A stretch of 64,000 nucleotides of DNA. Source: Labrys wisconsinensis (lineage in GTDB: Bacteria; Pseudomonadota; Alphaproteobacteria; Rhizobiales; Labraceae). The stretch covers positions 1 through 64,000 of the forward strand of contig NZ_JAUSVX010000022.1 of the NCBI RefSeq assembly GCF_030814995.1, written 5' to 3'. A model generated the notes under the pieces. It was not told the origin of the DNA. It saw nothing but the letters and a program-made list of their open reading frames with translations, and did not search any database. This document shows positions 37,894 to 39,441 of the stretch, in pieces; position 1 is the stretch's first letter, and each line of letters begins with the position of its first letter. The position numbers and the translations under genes were made by a program.

Positions 37894-39138
37894 TCACGCC
37901 ACGCTGCGCAGCGGCACCGCATCGCCGCCGAGCGCGCGCTCCATGGCGTTGCAGTACCATTCGACGAATTGCATCACCCCGCCCTCGTGGTCCGGCGCAT
38001 AGGGGCCGGGCTCGTAGACCGGCGAGGCGACGCCGCGCTGGTTCTCCTCGACGATCTGGCGGTCCTGGTCGTTGGTCGCGACCCAGACCCTGGTCAGCTC
38101 GTCCAGGCGATAGTCGACGCCCTCGACCGCATCCTTGTGCACCAGCCACTTGGTGGTGACCGCAGTCTCGCGCGGGCCGATCGGCGTGACGCGGAAGCTC
38201 ACGGCATGGTCGCCCAGCACGTGGTTCCAGGTGGTGGGGTAATGGAACAGCAGGAGCGAGCCGATGCGGTCCTCCTCGATCGAGGCGCTGAGCGGGCGCG
38301 CCACCGCCGGCTTGCCCGACATGGTGTAGCTCACCGCGTTGCGCAGCAGCGGCACGCGGGTGGCGCGGAACTGGCCGTCCCCGGACATCCTGAACAGGCT
38401 GGGCAGGCCCGCCTCCTCGCAGCGGTCCCAATGGGCGCGGATCAGCGGGTCGTCGCCGGCGCCCTGCACGCCGGTGACCGTCGGGGCCTCGGGGAAGGTG
38501 CGGCAGAGCTCGGGGTGGTTGCCGGCGCAGTGGTAGCACTCCCGGTTGTTCTCCCAGACCAGCTTCCAGTTGCCGTTCTCGACGATCGTGCTCTCGAAGG
38601 CGATCTTGGCGTCCTTCAGGCGGTGCGGCGCGAGATAGGGGGCGACCGTGGCGCGGAAGGCCTCGAAGTCCGGCGCCTCGCGGGCGAGGCAGATCCAGAC
38701 ATAGCCGCCGACGCTCTGGCAATGCACCGGCTTCAGGCCGAACTGCCTGGCGTCGAAGCCCGGGCCCATGTCGCGGGCGTAGAGGAGCTTGCCGTCGAGC
38801 TCGTAGGTCCACTGGTGATAGGGGCAGACCAGCTTGGCCACCGTGCCGCGCTCGGCCGCGCACAGGCGCGAGCCGCGGTGGCGGCAGGAATTGTGGAAGG
38901 CCTTGATCGATCCGTCGCCGGCGCGCAGCACGATGACGGGGTAGTCGCCGACCTGCAGGGTGATGTAGCTGCCCGGGCTGGTCAGCTCGCAGTCATGGCC
39001 GGCGAACAGCCATTCGCGGTACCAGATCGTCTCCAGGTCGAGCTGGAAATAGTCGGGGTCGGTGTAGAATTTCCGGCCGAGGGTGAAGCCGGGGCGGTGG
39101 GCGCGGAGCTGGCCCAGCATGTCGTTGCGCGCGTTCAT
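37894..39138 (-). CDS. gbcA: Glycine betaine monooxygenase (Rieske oxygenase) GbcA
   Basis: GbcA (414 residues) demethylates glycine betaine to dimethylglycine plus formaldehyde. The Rieske ligands are Cys85-x-His87 and Cys105-x2-His108. The mononuclear iron site includes His203 and His208 in [15 protein letters not shown], and [14 protein letters not shown] near the C-terminus is strongly GbcA-like. The ATG at 39138 gives [18 protein letters not shown]; a longer frame to 39246 would run into the riboswitch leader and is rejected. A related substrate such as stachydrine is possible. Confidence 0.9.
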
Positions 39139-39259
39139 GTCAAAATCCCACGTGACCTTCGCTGCAGTCTGCGGGTCGGGTGGGACAAGGCGCGGCCGGC
39201 GGTCCCCGCGCAGGCGCGGACGCCGTTCCGCCTCCCGGCCGCCCACCGCGACCCCAAGG

Positions 39260-39441
39260 CTCTGTTCCAGGCTGGTTTCCGGGCTCAGGAGCAGCCTTGC
39301 GGCTGGGCGCGACGCCTTCCCAGGTCCTTCGACCCAGTGGCCTTTGTCGCGCCCGCACTCCTCTACCGTTGCGGGGGCAGCGCCGGATTGTCACCGGCTT
39401 CCCAATTCTCCGGTCCTCCTCCCTCGGCGGACCGGCACCTC
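39260..39441 (-). promoter_or_regulatory. Cobalamin riboswitch upstream of gbcAB
   Basis: On the minus strand the classical order is seen: GAGGTGCCGGTCC (39441-39429), GGGAAGCCGGTG (39403-39392), core GCCCCCGCAACGG (39378-39366), GGCCACTGGG, GGGAAGGC (39320-39313) and B12 box GAGCCCGGAAACCAGCC (39286-39270). It ends about 120 nt before the gbcA ATG and points only into gbcA-gbcB. No other gene lies between. 39442-39577 shows nothing further. Confidence 0.92.

Follow-up and report, generated by a model that had tools for sequence, protein, structure and literature searches.

Why would an RNA element that senses cobalamin stand in front of genes for a Rieske oxygenase and its reductase? The window, that is, the whole stretch of 64,000 nucleotides analysed here from Labrys wisconsinensis (contig NZ_JAUSVX010000022.1, positions 1 to 64,000), contains such an arrangement (Table 1). 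The initial annotation, made from the sequence alone, had placed a complete B12 riboswitch ahead of the oxygenase genes, and the Rfam covariance model accepts the element: the match to RF00174 spans the full model (1–189) and scores 108.4 bits against a gathering score of 31.5 (E = 3.2e-26). A whole-genome search (8.9 Mb in 55 contigs) recovered the riboswitch again; the genome was otherwise covered family by family and region by region. The aptamer exceeds the end first assigned to it (39441) by 16 bases, and 115 nt separate it from the start codon of the oxygenase gene. A scan of positions 38900–39700 found no sigma-70 promoter, and the sole terminator-like site in this interval (39615–39584, reverse strand) trails the upstream gene and lies outside the leader.

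Table 1. Features of the riboswitch-controlled oxygenase locus (positions within the window).
Feature	Position	Strand	Basis
Cobalamin riboswitch aptamer, full length	39457-39253	-	Rfam RF00174 match
Aptamer loop GCCCCCGC (L5), predicted kissing partner of L13	39371..39378	-	Complementarity from sequence
Conserved downstream hairpin, stem GGTC/GGCC, loop GCGGTGGGC (L13)	39237..39253	-	Leader comparison
Predicted hairpin burying the Shine-Dalgarno region, GUCCCAC/GUGGGAU	39145..39186	-	Folding
Rieske oxygenase alpha subunit, GbcA/Stc2-like, probable betaine N-demethylase	37894..39138, ATG at 39138	-	Family scores, tree, residues
Flavin/2Fe-2S reductase partner, GbcB-like	about 36819..37889	-	Family scores

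The two genes had been named gbcAB. This naming stood at the family level, as a Rieske oxygenase with its reductase, and failed for canonical GbcA and GbcB, since the oxygenase scores 524.1 bits against a cut-off of 670 (NCBIfam NF058607, an equivalog model) and the reductase 355.4 bits against a cut-off of 500. On the GbcA model, four copies from the canonical clade reach 741–838 bits and the pSymA copy of S. meliloti reaches 491. The latter is nearly identical to structure 3vca, which we take to be Stc2, the stachydrine demethylase of S. meliloti. Among solved structures, those nearest to the window oxygenase are a putative dioxygenase, 3n0q, with 600 bits and 3vca with 576 bits, and its amino acid identity is 60% to the pSymA copy and 47–50% to the four canonical GbcA copies. 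A tree of 157 copies, of a quick kind without bootstrap and with SH-aLRT supports, places the window clade apart from the canonical GbcA clade and beside the clade with Stc2; the window clade and the S. meliloti Stc2 clade are separate and supported (98 and 99). Canonical GbcA was dropped as a name because of the score and the different clade, and Stc2 because the window protein falls outside the S. meliloti Stc2 clade. The riboswitch occurs in both non-canonical clades, and Rfam scans of all 13 canonical-side copies (12 in the clade and the long-branched L136) detected it in none.

The ligands of the Rieske cluster (C85, H87, C105, and H108) and of the iron (H203, H208, and D359) are intact in the window oxygenase, which also carries the group Vb signature, N198 where group Va has Tyr/Phe, and a bridging E200. 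Passages of PMC7948474 give this Asn, the bridging Glu, the His-His-Asp triad, and the Rieske Cys2His2 as the marks of group Vb. Judged by its sequence, the window oxygenase is thus a probable betaine N-demethylase, with glycine betaine and proline betaine as the likeliest substrates.

Expression platforms of cobalamin riboswitches feature an L13-type loop that is complementary to L5, and we take two loops of the leader to be this pair. A hairpin with the loop GCGGNGGGC lies 3' of the aptamer in the Labrys leaders and in most others, and GCGGNGGGC is complementary to the aptamer loop save one bulged base; the window leader has exact copies of GCCCCCGC and GCGGTGGGC. With at most one mismatch, both the L5 and the L13 motif are present in 81 of the 84 leaders that bear the riboswitch (the L13 loop being exact in 76) versus 4 of 70 riboswitch-free leaders, all four imperfect. 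The L13 stem varies in sequence between leaders with its pairing mostly retained, and among 31 distinct stems the four pairs next to the loop, counted outwards, are kept in 31, 27, 29, and 29. Pair 3 alone exceeds every one of 500 shuffles and no excess is seen at pairs five to seven, so the stem offers moderate evidence.

Further downstream, the GUCCCAC of the window leader can, by its sequence, pair either with the GUGGGAU of the Shine-Dalgarno region or with the GGUGGG of L13. When the last 60 nt were folded and kinship was ignored, the Shine-Dalgarno sequence was unpaired at a mean of 0.35 in riboswitch-bearing leaders (n = 79) versus 0.47 in the others (n = 70). Given the conserved hairpin loop complementary to L5 and the predicted Shine-Dalgarno hairpin, the leader is likely a translational OFF switch.

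The arrangement is not confined to the window. As the initial annotation had suggested, other genomes were searched for the same synteny, and the pairing is kept in 59 of 80 named relatives, 58 of them by motifs whose spacing from the start codon is comparable. The remaining one, L056, has an Rfam riboswitch further upstream, ahead of a nickel/cobalt transporter gene that is in turn followed by the oxygenase gene. These elements of L056 lie within positions 8605–10001, with the oxygenase gene about 95 bp beyond the transporter gene, an order that possibly joins cobalt uptake and the demethylase in one operon. L056 was one of three apparent exceptions that were rechecked; the other two, L017 and L058, have no riboswitch. 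An even sample of the order covered 249 genomes, 32 of which carry the gene (34 copies), and an equally even sample of the phylum had relatives in 65 of 397 genomes (73 copies). Rfam detected a riboswitch directly upstream in 15 of 33 order-sample leaders, five of which duplicate named loci (four of these with a riboswitch), and in 9 of 40 phylum-sample leaders, the 40 being those of the 73 copies taken for the leader scan; some of the others were already in the order sample. The nine include members of a further family in this class (code f56), taken here to be Rhodobacteraceae.

Within the named set, 28 riboswitch-bearing loci were tested further, all called by Rfam (23 placed by hand from genome matches, four from leader scans, and L056); the other 31 rest on motifs. 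The 21 riboswitch-free loci comprise 12 scanned with Rfam and nine from the motif screen. All 49 of these named genomes hold cobalamin riboswitches among the Rfam matches listed, including the 21 without one on the demethylase gene, so what these 21 lack is the element at this particular gene. Two loci stand out for other reasons. Labrys sp. WJW has a second demethylase copy (L116), 67% identical to the window protein and with its own riboswitch, beside which a further riboswitch points away from the copy. Locus L038 comes from a record with the title Bacillus subtilis, and the tree places it with Pseudochrobactrum; its assembly is probably mislabelled or contaminated.

Which other genes are placed under such leaders? 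Six RF00174 elements in the L. wisconsinensis genome exceed the cut-off, and one lies just below it (28.8 bits). Besides the demethylase operon, five transcription units are preceded by the same riboswitch class: metE, nrdA, cobW-cobN, btuFCD, and bluB. MetE and NrdA are well-known B12-independent isozymes, and nrdAB is a standard case of riboswitch control. Three genomes, those of Labrys sp. WJW, Rhizobiales bacterium Y(2018), and Mesorhizobium sp. J18, have metE, nrdAB, and the demethylase grouped in a region of about 10 kb, where a separate riboswitch precedes each of the three. Inquilinus limosus shows the same arrangement for nrdA and the demethylase. Passages of PMC3766115 use the category 'isozymes of B12-dependent enzymes', and metE is given as a B12-independent isozyme in passages of PMC2211319.

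Within the window, a second full cobalamin riboswitch (103.1 bits) is followed by a BtuF/BtuC/BtuD-type uptake operon (15266–18575, forward strand). Between this operon and the demethylase lie genes for a glycine-betaine-type ABC binding protein, a permease, and an aldehyde dehydrogenase (19097–24383, forward strand), a possible betaine uptake cluster, some of whose genes have a lower third-position GC. The sub-threshold element is short (31173–31293, reverse strand) and sits directly ahead of the cobalt transporter genes cbtB-cbtA (about 31143–30934 and 30922–30179), so the window may hold three B12-sensing leaders.

If the demethylase is one half of an isozyme pair, the genome should offer a B12-dependent other half. 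A search for MttB/MtgB-type methyltransferases and corrinoid proteins, which had been proposed as a check, returned three MttB genes and a corrinoid protein gene followed by DUF1638. The corrinoid protein is MtgC-like, with a score of 210 bits that lies below the NCBIfam cut-off of 370. The highest-scoring MttB protein matches 4yyc with 772 bits and the glycine betaine methyltransferase 9yce with only 408; the other two match 9yce with 366 and 334 bits. Structure 4yyc is labelled a putative trimethylamine methyltransferase and is presumably an S. meliloti protein, and several substrates are known for MttB-family enzymes. One MttB gene of this genome (L100, 6874–12750) is found near a sarcosine/dimethylglycine oxidoreductase-type gene, a candidate betaine breakdown cluster. 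Passages of PMC12478193 report that the aerobic Ruegeria pomeroyi demethylates glycine betaine via the B12-dependent MtgBCD, of which MtgB is an MttB-family protein, and that a corrinoid protein/DUF1638 pair, two locus tags apart, occurs in this Ruegeria methyltransferase system; they also point out Hyphomicrobiales with both an MtgBCD-type system and MetH.

In every genome tested in which the demethylase gene carries the riboswitch, the MttB family is present. Genomes of the named set have MttB in 28 of 28 cases with the riboswitch versus 2 of 21 without, with L056 counted as riboswitch-bearing (27/27 versus 3/22 if it is counted as a negative). The corresponding counts of copies are 16/16 versus 7/17 in the order sample and 9/9 versus 3/23 in the phylum sample; both include the outer and the canonical rows, and four genomes enter the phylum count twice. 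Across the combined non-canonical clade, comprising 98 copies from 97 genomes (Labrys sp. WJW is counted twice), MttB accompanies all 51 tested riboswitch-bearing copies and 9 of 47 riboswitch-free copies, plain counts that ignore shared ancestry. Left out of the 98 are 13 rows on the canonical GbcA side, nine outer rows, three repeat genomes of the named set, the 31 named loci that are all riboswitch-bearing by motif, a second copy (L133) that is riboswitch-free in the MttB-bearing genome G278, and two plasmid records (L139 and L140) that are riboswitch-free by the motif screen. The nine riboswitch-free copies in MttB-bearing genomes indicate that MttB does not always bring the switch.

Because relatives share history, a pair count on the tree is fairer than these plain counts. 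Among nine independent pairs on well-supported branches, MttB went with the riboswitch in 6.4 on average and in the opposite direction in 0; for the high-scoring MttB type, 6.9 of the nine pairs on average had the same direction and 0 the opposite. Sign tests over the pairs gave a median p of 0.031 for MttB and 0.016 for the high-scoring type (range 0.004–0.06). Within the window's clade, the median p is 0.125, which falls short of significance because this clade offers only five independent pairs.

The suggestion that a GbcAB-like enzyme replaces a corrinoid-dependent betaine methyltransferase is thus supported. As the riboswitch was found only alongside the MttB family in the relatives tested, the demethylase probably serves as a B12-free backup at low B12. 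We consider it likely that the leader is a cobalamin-responsive OFF switch and that the oxygen-dependent betaine demethylase is a B12-independent stand-in for a corrinoid-dependent betaine methyltransferase of the MttB family, the latter probably of the MtgB/MtgC type and presumably acting on the same substrate. The regulon, the clustering with metE and nrdAB, and the co-occurrence with MttB lend this idea strong support, and a third isozyme swap under a cobalamin riboswitch is the simplest account. When cobalamin is ample, the aptamer would bind it and L5 would pair with L13, which would free the anti-Shine-Dalgarno strand to close the ribosome site, and betaine methyl groups would reach folate by the corrinoid route. 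Under cobalamin shortage, L13 would instead pair with the anti-Shine-Dalgarno strand, the ribosome site would open, and the Rieske enzyme would take the methyl group off as formaldehyde.

A variant compatible with this swap, which we regard as possible and on present evidence rather unlikely, assigns the switch to proline betaine (stachydrine), with a Stc2-like demethylase backing up a B12-dependent proline betaine methyltransferase. The window protein is indeed nearer to Stc2 than to canonical GbcA, both in its match to 3vca and in its identity to the pSymA copy. The two proteins nonetheless belong to separate clades, and a motif screen of the 1200 bases upstream of the S. meliloti copy found no riboswitch motif.

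Two further explanations dispense with a B12-dependent betaine methyltransferase as partner. The glycine-derived aminolevulinate and the S-adenosylmethionine that bacteria use heavily in building the corrin ring suggest one of them: low B12 would induce betaine demethylation, whose glycine would feed the C4 route to aminolevulinate and whose one-carbon units would go into S-adenosylmethionine. The presence of cobW-cobN and bluB under the same riboswitch class in this genome accords with such a supply role, as does the stimulation of B12 production by betaine in industrial strains noted in passages of a review (PMC8123684). We find it doubtful, as it leaves the clustering with metE and nrdAB unexplained and does not predict a dependence on MttB: 19 named MttB-free genomes have riboswitches elsewhere and, among the matches listed, none on the demethylase gene (10 of the 19 loci were scanned with Rfam).

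The other explanation, which we rate as quite improbable, is that the operon adjusts methyl and folate pools when the B12-dependent MetH stalls, without a strict isozyme partner. MetH is encoded downstream in the window (31980–35735), MetE belongs to the same regulon, and betaine demethylation and methionine synthesis have subunits in common in Ruegeria, according to passages of PMC12478193. The MetH neighbourhood, to which the initial annotation had drawn attention, was rejected as a general rule: of 81 loci, some of which stop early at a contig end, only 5 were found to have a MetH gene within about 6–7 kb. Since neither explanation predicts the dependence on MttB, and since MetH is so rarely a neighbour, we hold both to be less likely than the isozyme swap. 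That the riboswitch is a leftover or a neutral neighbour with no role in the operon is highly improbable, given that the aptamer motifs keep a comparable spacing to the start codon in 58 of the 80 named loci, that the L13 loop is conserved, and that the element was not found on this gene in the MttB-lacking genomes tested.

Returning to the swap between a corrinoid and a Rieske enzyme, we lean towards the broader view that B12 status, acting through the riboswitch, sets the route of betaine demethylation in Hyphomicrobiales and other Alphaproteobacteria. If so, methyl groups would feed the pools of folate and methionine under ample B12 and would leave as formaldehyde under B12 shortage, and B12 supply would be tied directly to the breakdown of betaines, which are abundant for soil and plant-associated bacteria. 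A conserved operon would gain a function and its B12-dependent partner enzyme would be indicated, and a third widespread enzyme swap under a cobalamin riboswitch would join MetH/MetE and the ribonucleotide reductases. It may also help explain the role of betaine feeding in B12 fermentation.

How does this locus compare with known systems? The literature searched, with the two 2003 surveys of B12 elements outside its scope, yielded no paper in which this enzyme family is linked to a cobalamin riboswitch. Rodionov et al. 2003 and Vitreschak et al. 2003 reportedly described an alphaproteobacterial operon, ardX-frdX, under a B12 element, said to consist of a ring-dioxygenase-like and a ferredoxin-like gene. 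Like the window pair, it would be an alphaproteobacterial operon regulated by a B12 element, and we presume that it may be the same operon, so we do not take the pairing as wholly new; we know of no betaine function or link to MttB given for ardX-frdX in those surveys.

Among the characterised enzymes, GbcAB of Pseudomonas and Chromohalobacter belongs to the same group Vb and has the same two-component layout, with metal ligands and a bridging glutamate identical to those of the window protein in the aligned copies; the window protein differs in its score below the GbcA cut-off, its clade, and its riboswitch, which the canonical-side copies lack. Stc2 of S. meliloti (3vca) is among the three closest solved structures by score and has a similar GbcA-model score (491 versus 524), yet it differs from the window protein in its clade and in the lack of a riboswitch motif upstream. 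MtgBCD of Ruegeria pomeroyi is the proposed B12-dependent counterpart, and this genome has MttB-family genes, a corrinoid protein, and DUF1638; in the main text of PMC12478193 the word riboswitch appears in the reference list only, and its passages on this system propose no switch to a Rieske enzyme. The fatty-acid desaturase ole1 was likewise proposed, in passages of PMC2211319, as a B12-independent isozyme under a cobalamin riboswitch; it is a different enzyme, and its B12-dependent partner was not known in that study. Closest in regulation are the metE and nrdAB riboswitches, which share the RNA class, the logic, and the genome with the demethylase leader, and in some genomes the same gene cluster; what differs is the enzyme pair, which here would be a Rieske betaine demethylase and an MttB-family methyltransferase.
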